This document shows, one piece after another, positions 12,961-35,239 of a stretch of 35,239 nt of DNA (position 1 is the first letter of the stretch; each line of letters starts with the position of its first letter). Source of the stretch: Myxococcales bacterium (GTDB lineage: Bacteria; Myxococcota; Myxococcia; Myxococcales; 40CM-4-68-19); contig JAIVGS010000008.1 in assembly GCA_020201435.1 (NCBI GenBank), positions 1 through 35,239 on the forward strand, given 5' to 3'. The notes below the pieces were generated by a model. It ran no database searches. It saw nothing but the letters and a program-made list of their open reading frames with translations, and had not been told where the DNA came from. The position numbers and the translations under genes are program-made.

Positions 12961-13655
12961 GGACCGTCCTGCTTCACGGTTTCACCGGCGGAGCGACCTC
13001 GTTCGCGCACCTGCCGGTGGACGCGGTGACGCCGGAGCTGCCCGGGCACGGCTCGGCTCCGCCGGCGACCTCGTGGGAAGACGCGCTCGCCGAGCTGCAA
13101 AAGCTCCTCGATCCGGGTCCCGTCGTCCTCGGCGGCTACTCGATGGGCGCGCGCCTCGCGCTCGCCCTCGCGCTGCGGCGGCCGGAAAAGATCGCACGCC
13201 TTGTGCTGGCGAGCGGGACTGCCGGCATCGAGGATGAAACCGAGCGCGCAAGCCGAAGGGCCCAGGACGAAGAGCTCGCCCGGTTCATCGAGACCCACGA
13301 CATCGCCGCGTTCGTCGACCGTTGGCAGGCAAATGAAATCGTTTCATTGAAATCGTTTCAGGTGGAATCGTTTCAGCTGGAACGATTGCGCGCGCAACGA
13401 TTGCGGCATCAACCGGCGAAGCTGGCCGGCGCGCTGCGTCGTCTCGGATCCGGCGCGCAGCCGTCCTACTGGGACGACCTGCACCGCCTGTCGATGCCGG
13501 TCGTCCTCCTCGCCGGCGCCCGCGACCCGAAGTTCGCCGCCATCGCCGCCCGGATGCACGCCCGGCTGCGGTCGTCCGAGCTGCGCGTGGTCGAAGAGTG
13601 CGGCCACGTGATCCACGTCGAGAAACCGGAAGTCTTCACAGGAGCACTGCGATGA
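12957..13655 (+). CDS. menH: SHCHC synthase, alpha/beta hydrolase (MenH)
   Basis: A 232-residue alpha/beta-hydrolase that eliminates pyruvate from SEPHCHC to give SHCHC. The catalytic triad is visible: Ser in GGYSMGAR near residue 62, Asp in AGARDPKF near 188, and His in [12 protein letters not shown] near 217; HGFTGG near residue 7 is the oxyanion region and GSGAQPSYW near 163 is typical of MenH. The GTG at 12957 overlaps the menD stop (GTGA). It lies between menD and menB in the usual order of such operons. Odd: residues about 126-150 in the lid region are built from a tandem low-GC repeat (13334-13406) giving [17 protein letters not shown] and similar, where relatives have an unrelated sequence of about the same length. 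Confidence 0.88.
13334..13406 (+). repeat. Tandem TGAAATCGTTTCA-type repeat inside menH
   Basis: Five consecutive units of 13-16 bases. Units 1 and 2 (13334-13346, 13348-13360) are identical TGAAATCGTTTCA, unit 3 (13361-13375) keeps GGAATCGTTTCA, and units 4 and 5 (13376-13406) drift to GGAACGATTGC and CAACGATTGC. Each early unit is itself a small inverted repeat (TGAAA/TTTCA around TCG). The patch is far lower in GC than the gene around it and is read through in frame. Confidence 0.75.
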
Positions 13656-16310: not shown

Positions 16311-17467
16311 AGGTCGTCTTCCACGACGCGCGGCTCGACGTGCAGCCGCGAGCGACGGGCGAAAAGCGCATCGCCGTCGCGCAGGAGAACTCGCCGGAGC
16401 TCGTCGCGCTCGTCCTCGGCGCGCTCGAGAGCGGCGCCGAGATCGTCCTGCAGAATACGCGCGTTACAAATTTAGAACGCGCGTTACAACTCGCGTCGAT
16501 CGAGAGCATCCCGCCCGCCGGCGAGGCCGCGACCATCCTGTTCACCTCCGGTACGAGCGGCGCGCCGAAAGCCGCCCGCCTCGCACGCGACAACCACGAG
16601 GCCAGCGCGCGGGCCGCCATCGAGCTCCTCGGAATCGACCACACCTCGCGCTTCCTCTGCGCGATGCCGATGTTCCACGCCGGCGGACTCGCCATCGCGC
16701 TGCGCTGCTGGTTCGCGGGCGCGACGATGCTTTTGCACCAGCGATTCGACGCGCACGCCGTCGCCCGCGAGCTGGCGCAGGGAGCGACGCACGCGAGCCT
16801 GGTCGCCAGCACGCTCACGCGCGTACTCGACGCGTGCGAGAAATACCCCCCGACCGTGAAAGCCGTCCTCGTCGGCGGTGGGCCGGTGCCGAAAACCCTT
16901 CTGCAGCGGGCGCAGCGCGCCGGCCTGCCGGTCCTGCAGACGTACGGTCTCACCGAGACCGCTTCGATGGCCACCTGCGAGCGCCTGGGCGAGGCCGACG
17001 GCGCGACCGCAGGCCCGCCCATCCCCGGCATGCAAGTCCGCGTCAGCAAAGGAGAAATCGAGGTGCGCGGCCCGTCGGTCATGCGCGGCTACCTCGGCGC
17101 CAAACCGCGCGACGACTGGTTCCCGACCGGCGACCTCGGCGAGCTCGACGCGCGCGGCCGCCTGATCATCCACGCCCGCCGCACCGACCTGATCGTCAGC
17201 GGTGGAGAAAACGTCTACCCCGCCGAGGTCGAGGCCGCCCTGCTCGCCCATCCGCTCGTCCGGGAGGCCGCGGTCCTCCCCGCCCCCGACGAGCGCTGGG
17301 GCCAGGTCGGCGTCGCGTATGTCAGCACGACCGCCGCCGAGAGCGAGCTGCGCGCGTTCCTGCGCGATCGGATCGCGAAGTTCAAGGTCCCGGCGCGCTT
17401 CGTCGTCGTCCCGGAGCTGCCGCGCAACGCCGCTGGCAAGGTCGACCGCGCGCGGCTTCAGGGCTAA
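16307..17467 (+). CDS. menE: o-Succinylbenzoate-CoA ligase, short form
   Basis: A 386-residue adenylate-forming enzyme that activates o-succinylbenzoate to its CoA ester for MenB. Seen: P-loop motif ILFTSGTSGAPK near residue 80, QTYGLTETAS near 210, GDLGELDARGRL near 275, the hinge RRTDLIVSGGENVYP near 292 and the C-terminal catalytic Lys in RNAAGKVDRARL near 378. The P-loop motif lies only about 80 residues from the start, roughly half the usual distance, so the N-terminal subdomain is reduced. The GTG at 16307 overlaps the menC stop and no longer frame is available beyond menC. Residues about 50-63, just before the P-loop domain, come from two copies of the palindromic AACGCGCGTT element. 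Last gene of the men operon. Confidence 0.88.
   Translation: MKVVFHDARLDVQPRATGEKRIAVAQENSPELVALVLGALESGAEIVLQNTRVTNLERALQLASIESIPPAGEAATILFTSGTSGAPKAARLARDNHEASARAAIELLGIDHTSRFLCAMPMFHAGGLAIALRCWFAGATMLLHQRFDAHAVARELAQGATHASLVASTLTRVLDACEKYPPTVKAVLVGGGPVPKTLLQRAQRAGLPVLQTYGLTETASMATCERLGEADGATAGPPIPGMQVRVSKGEIEVRGPSVMRGYLGAKPRDDWFPTGDLGELDARGRLIIHARRTDLIVSGGENVYPAEVEAALLAHPLVREAAVLPAPDERWGQVGVAYVSTTAAESELRAFLRDRIAKFKVPARFVVVPELPRNAAGKVDRARLQG
16456..16495 (+). repeat. AACGCGCGTT palindromic element, double copy in menE
   Basis: Two units in tandem, ACGCGCGTTACAA (16457-16469) and AACGCGCGTTACAA (16476-16489), joined by ATTTAG and ending CTCGCG. Read on the other strand they give TTGTAACGCGCGTTCTAAA, matching the ubiE and menD copies. 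Here the element runs opposite to the gene direction and in another phase, encoding NTRVTNLERAL, and still has no stop codon. Confidence 0.7.
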
Positions 17468-17480
17468 CCGGCGCGGCAGG

Positions 17481-17510
17481 TTGGGCTCGGGGCTCGCGGC
17501 GAGTTATACA
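17481..17510 (+). promoter_or_regulatory. Candidate promoter of moaA giving a leaderless mRNA
   Basis: TTGGGC (17481-17486) and TATACA (17505-17510) stand 18 bases apart in the 49-base gap after menE. The GTG start of moaA follows the -10 by 6 bases, so transcription would begin at or next to the start codon. No Shine-Dalgarno is present before that GTG, in agreement with a leaderless message. The -35 matches consensus in only three positions. Confidence 0.45.
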
Positions 17511-17516
17511 CCCGGC

Positions 17517-18617
17517 GTGGATGCGCTCCGGCTGCCGGTCGTTCCCGCGGGTCCGCGCGCGCTCGACGCGGCGGCGCTCGGTCTGACCGCGCAGGGCGAC
17601 GCGCGAGCGCACGGCCTGTTCGACCGGTACGGCCGCGCCCACACCTACCTGCGCATCTCGATCATCGAGAAGTGCAACCTGCGCTGCCGGTACTGCATGC
17701 CCGCCGAGGGCGTGCCGCTGCTGCCTCGCGAGGACCTGCTCACGTTCGAGGAGATCGAGCGCCTGGCCGCTCTCTTCGTGGGCCTTGGCGTGCGGAAGAT
17801 TCGCGTGACGGGCGGGGAGCCGCTCGTGCGGCGGGACGTCGACGATTTGATCGCTCGCCTGGGCAGGCTCAAGGCGCTCGGGCTGCATCGACTGGCGATG
17901 ACGTCGAACGCGCTCTTGCTCAAGCAGCACATCCCGGCGATGCGGGCGGCGGGGCTCGACGCGGTCAACCTGTCGCTCGACACGCTGCGGCCGGATCGGT
18001 TCAGGGCGATCACGCTGCGTGACGGCTGCGAGGAAACGATCGACGCCATCCGGACCGCGGCGGCGGCCGGGTTCGAGAAGGTCAAGGTCAACGCGGTCGT
18101 GATGGCGGGGGTGAACGACGACGAGCTCGTCGATCTCGCGCGGGCGTTCGCGCGCGATCTGCCGGTCGACGTTCGATATATCGAGTATATGCCGTTCGAA
18201 GGCAATCACTGGGGTGAGGCGCTCAAGATGTTCCCGGCGGCGGCGATTCGGGCGCGGCTCGAGGAGCAACTCGAGCTGATCCCCACCGGCTTCGACGAGA
18301 CCGCCGCGATGTACCGGGTCCCTGGGTTCCTCGGCAGCATCGGCATCATCTCGTCGATGACCGAGCCGTTCTGCGCCACCTGCAGCCGGACGCGCCTGAC
18401 CGCCGACGGGCACTTCCGCTGGTGCCTGCTCGACGAGGGCGAGCTCGACCTGCGGGGCCCGCTCCGCGACGGCGCGACCGACGGCGACCTCGCCGGGCTC
18501 ATCGAGGAAGGCCTGCGCCGCAAGAAGCCGGGCCACGCGCCCGCCGACGAGCTGCTCTCGGTCCAGAAAGCCGCCGGCCCCGGCGGCGCCCGCTCCATGA
18601 TCCGCATCGGCGGGTAA
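17517..18617 (+). CDS. moaA: GTP 3',8-cyclase (MoaA)
   Basis: A 366-residue radical SAM enzyme of molybdenum cofactor synthesis, converting GTP to the cyclic precursor with MoaC. The N-terminal [4Fe-4S] motif CNLRCRYC is near residue 54, VTGGEPLVR near 99, NLSLDT near 151, and the C-terminal second-cluster motif CATCSRTRL with a further Cys in RWCLLDEG is near 290. The protein ends in Gly-Gly, the conserved functional tail of MoaA. The N-terminus has about 28 more residues before the usual DRYGRAHTYLRISI block. The GTG at 17517 is chosen from the promoter-like hexamer 6 bases upstream and because no other in-frame start has better context; a later start cannot be excluded. No other moa genes are in the window. 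A tandem repeat begins at the base after its stop. Confidence 0.9.
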   Translation: MDALRLPVVPAGPRALDAAALGLTAQGDARAHGLFDRYGRAHTYLRISIIEKCNLRCRYCMPAEGVPLLPREDLLTFEEIERLAALFVGLGVRKIRVTGGEPLVRRDVDDLIARLGRLKALGLHRLAMTSNALLLKQHIPAMRAAGLDAVNLSLDTLRPDRFRAITLRDGCEETIDAIRTAAAAGFEKVKVNAVVMAGVNDDELVDLARAFARDLPVDVRYIEYMPFEGNHWGEALKMFPAAAIRARLEEQLELIPTGFDETAAMYRVPGFLGSIGIISSMTEPFCATCSRTRLTADGHFRWCLLDEGELDLRGPLRDGATDGDLAGLIEEGLRRKKPGHAPADELLSVQKAAGPGGARSMIRIGG

Positions 18618-18664
18618 TTGGGGACACTCGTTGGGGACACTCGATTGGGACACTCGTTGGGGAC
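18618..18664 (+). repeat. TTGGGGACACTCG tandem repeat, intergenic copy
   Basis: Starting immediately after the moaA stop codon are units TTGGGGACACTCG (18618-18630), the same plus A (18631-18644), a one-base-shorter unit (18645-18656) and a partial unit (18657-18664). It fills the 52-base gap between the convergent moaA and RNA methyltransferase genes. The same unit occurs, on the opposite strand, inside the neighbouring gene at 19351-19416. Confidence 0.85.
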
Positions 18665-18669
18665 GGCCG

Positions 18670-19761
18670 TCAGTTCTTTCCGACCGGGTCGGAAACGACG
18701 AAATCCACCGGAATTCCGCCATTTTCCGTGCGCAGCAGCCGGTTCCAGCGCAAACCAGCGGCTGACATCGCCGACGAATCAGCGACGATCGCAGCCACCT
18801 TCCACCCCGGACGACGCCGGGCGACGTCACCGAGATCCCGAAAGACGCGGCGGACGTCCGCGGCGATCCGGACGCCATACGGCGGGTTGCAGGCGATCAT
18901 CCCGGGCCCGCCGTCCGGTGGAACTGCCGCGAGCGTTCGCTGGACGAGCTCGATCGCGACGCCCGCTCGGTCCGCATTTTCGCGCGCGGCGGCGACGGCG
19001 CCGGCATCCTGGTCCGAGCCCTCGATTCGACCGGCGTTCGGCGCCGCTCGATCTTGAAAAGGGCGGACATCCCACGCCGGCCATTTCTCGAATGAAAACG
19101 AACGCTTCGCGCCCGGCGCCCGACCCGCGGCGAGGAGCGCCGCTTCGATCGCGATGGTCCCGGAGCCGCAGAGCGGATCGCAGAGCCGCGTCGCCGGGTC
19201 CCACTCAGCCGAGAGCAGCAGCGCCGCCGCGAGCGTCTCGCGCAGCGGCGCCTTCGCTTGCGGACCGCGATAGCCGCGCTGGTGCAGGAGCGGACCCGAC
19301 GAATCGGCGCTCACCGTGCACATGTCGCGCTCGATTCGGGCGATGAAAAGTTGGGTGTCACGATCGAGTGTCCCCAACGAGTGTCCCAATCGAGTGTCCC
19401 CATTGAGTGTCCCCAAACGTGCGTCCAGCGCGGTTTGGAGGCGTTCGGCGACCGCGCGGGAGTGGTAGAGGCGGGACTTGCGGCAGGTGACGCGGAAGGT
19501 GGCCGGAGCGCCGGGACGGATGAATTTCTCCCACGGCAGGGCCGAGGCCTTGCGCACCAGCTCGGGAAAGGCCGTGGCGCGGAACGGCTCGCCGAGGCGG
19601 ACCAGCACGCGCGACGCCGTTCGCAACCACCGGTTGAGGGTCGCGATGTCGCCGGAAGGGACCTCGACGCCGCCGGGCACCGCGGTCGCCGAAAAGCCGA
19701 GCGCCTGGACCTCCCCGAGCAGGACGGCCTCGAGACCCGGCGCGCACACCGCGAAGACCAT
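18670..19761 (-). CDS. THUMP-domain RNA N2-guanosine methyltransferase (RlmL/Trm14-like)
   Basis: A 363-residue protein with an N-terminal ferredoxin-like/THUMP region (about residues 1-115, starting VFAVCAPGLEAVLLGEVQAL) and a C-terminal SAM methyltransferase domain: CDPLCGSGTIAIEAALL near 177 is motif I with the family Cys, GSDQDAGAV is motif II, and NPPY near 280 is the N2-guanine methyltransferase signature. Members modify 23S rRNA or tRNA; the exact target cannot be told. I start at the ATG at 19761; a longer open frame would run into the divergent neighbour. There is no Shine-Dalgarno, but CATAGT (19774-19769 on this strand) lies 7 bases before the start. Odd: residues about 116-137, the linker between the two domains, are an in-frame tandem of GTL/GDT/GHS encoded by a 13-base DNA repeat. 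Confidence 0.86.
   Translation of the reverse strand: MVFAVCAPGLEAVLLGEVQALGFSATAVPGGVEVPSGDIATLNRWLRTASRVLVRLGEPFRATAFPELVRKASALPWEKFIRPGAPATFRVTCRKSRLYHSRAVAERLQTALDARLGTLNGDTRLGHSLGTLDRDTQLFIARIERDMCTVSADSSGPLLHQRGYRGPQAKAPLRETLAAALLLSAEWDPATRLCDPLCGSGTIAIEAALLAAGRAPGAKRSFSFEKWPAWDVRPFQDRAAPNAGRIEGSDQDAGAVAAARENADRAGVAIELVQRTLAAVPPDGGPGMIACNPPYGVRIAADVRRVFRDLGDVARRRPGWKVAAIVADSSAMSAAGLRWNRLLRTENGGIPVDFVVSDPVGKN
19351..19416 (-). repeat. TTGGGGACACTCG tandem repeat, copy inside the RNA methyltransferase
   Basis: On the gene strand there are four good units of 12-14 bases (TTGGGGACACTCAA, TGGGGACACTCGA, TTGGGACACTCG, TTGGGGACACTCGA) and a degenerate fifth (TCGTGACACCCAA). Total 66 bases, 22 codons. 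Because the unit is not a multiple of three, successive units are read in different phases as GTL, GDT, GHS, GTL, RDT. The unit has no stop codon in any of six frames. Confidence 0.85.

Positions 19762-32560: not shown

Positions 32561-35239
<2,679 letters not shown>

Follow-up and report, generated by a model that had tools for sequence, protein, structure and literature searches.

Y1 transposase genes flanked by inverted GGGGWSAS repeats, some of which form dispersed families, are known as TIRYTs or TIRtrons (Di Nocera et al. 2013, PMC3733652; Quentin et al. 2018, PMC6006769). In the text of the latter account the matching class is TnpAREP subclass 2.1, for which a C-terminal HTH (Bac_DnaA_C, HTH_23 or HTH_28-like) is described. 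Two further systems come close: the REPINs and the REP/BIME sequences of RAYTs, which are dispersed extragenic hairpin doublets with a cognate RAYT and some tandem clusters (Bertels and Rainey 2011, PMC3116915), and intragenic REPs, which are read in frame in known proteins and which, as the text of PMC3733652 proposes, flexible linkers or loops can accommodate. Here we analysed a 13-bp repeat that lies in a methyltransferase gene of a Myxococcales bacterium. We consider it highly probable that its units are members of a dispersed TIRYT-type family, namely the terminal repeats of a Y1 (HUH) transposase of the REP-associated type, copied genome-wide.

The window, that is, the whole stretch of 35,239 nucleotides that was analysed, contains the following features.

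17202..18617, + strand: moaA-like ORF; its likeness to relatives starts near 17427, and its TAA stop abuts the second array
18618..18664, + strand: second array of the 13-bp unit, 3.6 copies, inverted relative to the rlmL array
18670..19761, - strand: RlmL-like 23S rRNA methyltransferase gene (rlmL) with RlmL_1st, THUMP and UPF0020 domains; carries the in-frame array
19351..19416, - strand: in-frame rlmL array of about five 13-bp units, coding for residues 119-140 (LGTLNGDTRLGHSLGTLDRDTQ) of the RlmL-like protein

The rlmL array, read on the minus strand from 19416 to 19351, is TTGGGGACACTCA ATGGGGACACTCG ATTGGGACACTCG TTGGGGACACTCG ATCGTGACACCC followed by three codon-completing bases; one unit is exact, others are off by one or two bases, and the last (ATCGTGACACCC) is degenerate. 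Seven matches to the unit with two or fewer mismatches were found in the window, against 0.62 expected from shuffles. A tandem of the unit contains no stop codon in any of the six frames, and all three frames yield one identical 13-residue peptide (LGTLVGDTRWGHS), the period of 13 residues being the same in every frame because the unit length is not divisible by three. The original prediction of an array at this place, 22 codons long and composed of a unit open in six frames, was thus borne out by the units and the translation within the 366-residue frame, although it overlooked the second array. Its rule that any copy number keeping a multiple of three would be tolerated is correct as to the open frames, but too simple; the loop of the congener G002 is shorter by 9 residues (27 nt), a length not divisible by 39, and other indels therefore also kept the frame.

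The assignment of the host protein to the RlmL type is based on three domain matches, RlmL_1st (residues 6-56), THUMP (66-129; weak taken alone, at 18.8 bits against a cut-off of 20.6) and UPF0020 (165-351), together with its relation to the solved structures 3k0b, 3ldu, 3ldg and 3v97, the last being E. coli RlmL. In an AlphaFold2 model (22 sequences, mean pLDDT 89.5, pTM 0.89), the array-coded loop (pLDDT ~52) lies between a THUMP helix (100-115) and two strands (136-143 and 146-152), in a model numbering that is 4 less than the residue numbering of the 366-residue frame. The methyltransferase domain starts ~24 residues past this loop. According to the domain matches and the predicted structure, the array sits in a loop inside THUMP, and we rejected the earlier placement exactly between THUMP and the methyltransferase domain.

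The second array fills the space between the convergent stop codons of moaA and rlmL (18618-18669) and begins directly after the moaA TAA. In the congener G005, the two genes are ~6 nt apart, and we therefore rejected the idea that the array is the scar of a lost ridA-like gene. Such a gene is found between moaA and rlmL in G002 (L194 1785-2231) and is absent from this position in the window, in G005 and apparently in G007; judged from these sequences, it looks like an insertion in G002. The two window arrays, inverted relative to each other and ~709 bp apart, were also considered as the borders of a moved RAYT-sized segment, like the 719-bp one at the transposase contig C190 described below. 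This was rejected because the intervening DNA is orthologous rlmL coding sequence that aligns in relatives, and the similar spacing is taken as a coincidence. The window further holds a 55-bp tandem repeat (33773-33883; 2.0 copies, 94% alike), apparently unrelated to the 13-bp unit, and an internally symmetrical 14/15-bp repeat (13334-13382; about three copies, consensus TGAAATCGTTTCAGG).

The source genome of the window, G000, is a fragmented assembly of 4.76 Mb in 363 contigs, probably a MAG. It contains 69 exact TTGGGGACACTCG-type units and 132 exact tandem pairs of the form GGGACACTCN4GGGACACTC, and in each case the reversed pattern gave 0, by which a chance origin of the units was rejected. 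The recurrence of the unit elsewhere in the genome, a check attached to the original prediction, was thereby confirmed. The units lie in ~40 dispersed small arrays, 41 of which were sampled by a pattern that misses older degenerate ones. Among 195 genomes of the phylum, only G000 and G002 contain tandem pairs of the form GGGGACASYCN3GGGGACASYC. The unit core is GGGACACTC in 179 of 206 sampled units of G000 and GGGACACCC in 79 of 85 sampled units of G002, the latter species having its own unit, GGGGACACCCTTC.

The sampled arrays take two forms. One-way arrays of 2-11 units account for 30 of the 41 in G000, and inverted pairs, doublets with a predicted hairpin, for the other 11; in G002 the inverted form accounts for 15 of 19. 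The inverted elements are bounded by TTGGGG...CCCCAA, and their single strands form strong folds (z about -6 to -12). For the two window arrays, each of them one-way, the folding test gave no hairpin of their own. A six-unit array at the start of G000 contig C153 (L042 1-100) has short complementary flanks (GCCTGAGTG...CAACAGGCGCAGCGAGCCTG). Arrays are found at many contig ends of G000 and seem to break the assembly.

There were 21 Y1_Tnp matches in G000 (L009-L029), and only the one on C190 is flanked by the unit, with five + units upstream and five - units downstream. Its protein matches PF01797 at 45.3 bits (cut-off 23) and falls just below the cut-off for NCBIfam REP_Tyr_transpos (72.4 against 80); the HxH motif (H60, H62) and the catalytic tyrosine (Y119) are invariant across 10 relatives. 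No Pfam HTH model matched its C-terminus at E<=1; the protein has a C-terminal extension in which positions are conserved. Two paralogues in G000 (C107 and C23), 59-65% identical to the C190 protein, are both without arrays. Among 99 genomes of the order, its nearest relative is the G002 transposase (81% identity), which lies at the same locus (G002 contig C163) beside the same 3' neighbor gene, with four G002-type units on each side. At both loci, the arrays run + upstream and - downstream and carry GGGGACAC. The linkage extends to RAYTs 38-43% identical to the C190 protein, which are flanked on both sides by TTGGGGACACTCAAAAGGGACACTC-type elements at L098, L109 and L116, in Geobacteraceae, Desulfuromonas and Deltaproteobacteria MAGs (Desulfuromonadales-type). 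In a scan of named genomes, the 13-nt phased core was also found in Geobacteraceae, Desulfuromonadales and Acidobacteria MAGs, among others, and in the Desulfuromonadales group it occurs mostly as TTGGGGACACTCAAAAGGGACACTC...GAGTGTCCCC hairpins. An ATG that follows the arrays on G000 contigs C163 and C193 looked like a transposase start. For C163 this was rejected, since the ATG opens a short ORF only and the contig has no Y1 match; C193 ends too soon past the array for its ATG to be judged.

Coding-frame scoring and ORF inspection in G000 found in-frame genic arrays in 3 of the ~41 cases, all in linkers or loops.

rlmL: THUMP loop
L031, Ser/Thr kinase-PEGA protein: Pro-rich linker
L174, unassigned protein: short, Pro-rich part

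The copy in the kinase gene is a complete inverted element in G000, and the G002 orthologue is without the insertion. The remaining arrays of G000 are mainly extragenic, many of them abutting stop codons. At 13 of 48 outer edges a stop codon directly adjoins TTGGGG at one exact offset, against a background of ~0.6; TAG occurs at only a few outer array edges. This adjacency may reflect target choice or, alternatively, selection against landings in genes. The expectation of a repeat that expands inside genes and lengthens linkers therefore stands in part, since the repeat is dispersed, is read in frame in three genes and has made a loop longer, but this is not the main process. What dominates is a repeat family dispersed mostly outside genes and linked to a Y1 transposase; its copies often follow a stop codon directly and are often inverted pairs that form hairpins. 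Landings inside genes make up a minority.

The rlmL gene of G002 carries two units of the G002 type (TTGGGGACACCCTCCGGGGACACCCTCG) at the same codon as the G000 array, and both arrays begin at the same base (GCACGT|TTGGGGACAC). The rlmL loops of G005 and G007 are unrelated to the repeat. As the orthologue comparison proposed earlier shows, orthologues have a different repeat or none, and the more distant ones do not conserve the peptide. Besides rlmL, six sites carry arrays in both species, and one of these is the transposase locus. At 7 of 7 shared sites, the unit distance at the orthologous site (2.95-3.57 of 13) exceeds that within a genome (1.66-2.49), and the flanking DNA at these sites is ~75-88% identical between G000 and G002. 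At one of them (L057/L181) the outermost unit, CTCGGGGACACCC, is common to both species and the inner units differ. These sequence patterns suggest that units turn over in concert inside inherited arrays. We put forward only tentatively the more specific reading, by which units would be overwritten in place and inherited arrays converted genome-wide to the current unit of each species by templated replacement, rlmL included, so that the repeat would both lengthen proteins and evolve as a single population across the genome. Array length also appears unstable, as judged from assembly overlaps only. The end of G000 contig C4 and the start of C45 (L030, L034) have the same unique flank and 3 versus 6 units in one arm, a 39-bp difference; the ends of C193 and C163 (L048, L045) overlap by 88 nt with one mismatch and have 5 versus at least 6 units.

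The observed side of the model given at the outset consists of units scattered through the genome, a transposase gene between arrays in two species and in other taxa, coding in frame, and shared sites occupied by species-type units. The steps from transposase to array that we infer from the sequences would then be as follows. The basic mobile form would most likely be an inverted pair, in which two or more units, a short loop and reversed units form a single-strand hairpin that serves as the intermediate. The C190 transposase, encoded between two arrays, would cut and paste single strands at the units and often leave copies just after stop codons. New units would be inserted into old ones or replace them, which would be possible because resident units carry the same recognition sequence, and slippage between identical 13-mers would change the copy number. 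Addition, replacement and slippage would together produce head-to-tail arrays that are uniform within a genome. Speaking against this model, both window arrays are one-way, like 30 of the 41 sampled arrays of G000; if the mobile form is indeed the inverted pair, the window arrays must be remnants or expansion products. In rlmL, the element would have landed in a permissive loop of THUMP when G000 and G002 had not yet diverged. As no frame of the unit contains a stop codon, the landing would have survived, and the units would since have turned over separately in the two species.

The main rival to turnover is that each species independently re-inserted its own repeat at the same preferred targets, with no homogenization in place. 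Double landings are conceivable, since arrays often stand directly after stop codons, and at least one site, in the kinase gene, is occupied in one species only. However, both arrays in rlmL begin at the same base although this site is without a stop codon, and a common outermost unit with differing inner units at L057/L181 is the pattern of turnover in an inherited array. We therefore regard independent re-insertion as rather unlikely. It is improbable that the units spread by homologous recombination or gene conversion between short repeats, with the adjacency of the transposase being coincidental. Gene conversion has been proposed for REPs (the 1988 Higgins review, as cited in the text of PMC6006769), the role of the transposase is an inferred one, and just 1 of the 21 Y1 genes is flanked; nevertheless, the transposase gene is flanked in both congeners, as are the 38-43% identical transposases of unrelated Desulfuromonadales-type MAGs, and GGGGWSAS flanking repeats are reported for this transposase group in the text of PMC3733652.

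The array might also be a local minisatellite, produced by slippage inside rlmL from a chance 13-mer without any connection to a transposase. The head-to-tail arrangement, the seemingly variable copy number and the steps of 13 and 39 bp fit slippage, which probably contributes to array length and is a possible cause of its changes. As the origin of the array, slippage is contradicted by the dispersed copies: the unit recurs at ~40 other places in G000, in inverted pairs and beside a transposase in two species and other taxa, and G002 lacks the kinase copy, which is a complete inverted element. A purely local origin is thus very improbable. Scarcely credible is selection for the repeated peptide itself as a functional RNA-binding linker of RlmL. 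The reading frame is unbroken, and two species retain a loop coded by the repeat, but the peptide differs between G000 and G002, other relatives have unrelated residues there, the same DNA is mainly noncoding elsewhere, and the loop is modeled at pLDDT ~52; as the orthologues differ, a conserved functional linker was rejected.

Taken together, what looked like a minisatellite inside a gene is recast as the probable landing site of a transposase-linked repeat. With a unit free of stop codons in all six frames, the array offers a test case of in-frame mobile DNA, and two congeners with the same occupied sites and different units make the uniformity of dispersed bacterial repeats directly testable. 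There are two practical cautions: repeat DNA can lie behind GTL/GDT/GHS-like linkers of predicted proteins, and arrays of this kind seem to break assemblies.

A search of the literature with the raw unit sequence gave nothing relevant, and we found no earlier account of 13-bp phasing or unit turnover in the open-access literature text that was searched. The likeness to TIRYTs consists in a Y1/HUH transposase with HxH and tyrosine, encoded between inverted repeats that share GGGGWSAS (here GGGGACAC), and in the dispersal of this flanking repeat through the genome as pairs and clusters. Unlike the TIRYTs as presented in the text of the two accounts, the family described here has a short 13-bp phased unit and frequent one-way arrays of 2-11 units, and the HTH reported for most TIRYTs was not detected by Pfam; the parts of PMC3733652 and PMC6006769 consulted describe, for TIRs, neither copies read in frame within genes nor a turnover of units at orthologous positions. 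The family resembles REPINs and the REP/BIME sequences in having a cognate transposase and, in part of its arrays (11 of 41 in G000, 15 of 19 in G002), dispersed hairpin doublets outside genes, whereas its 13-mer is not palindromic and lacks the GTAG tag of REPs, and many of its arrays, both window arrays included, are one-way. With the intragenic REPs in the text of PMC3733652, it shares an in-frame position in flexible parts of proteins, but it is another repeat family, and here the frame is tolerated owing to a 13-bp unit that no stop codon closes in any of the six. The fit to the published TIRYT/GGGGWSAS pattern therefore leads us to class it as a variant with 13-bp-phased, often one-way units. 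It is an element of a known kind with unusual traits: short phased units, one-way arrays, frame-neutral coding and turnover at orthologous sites.
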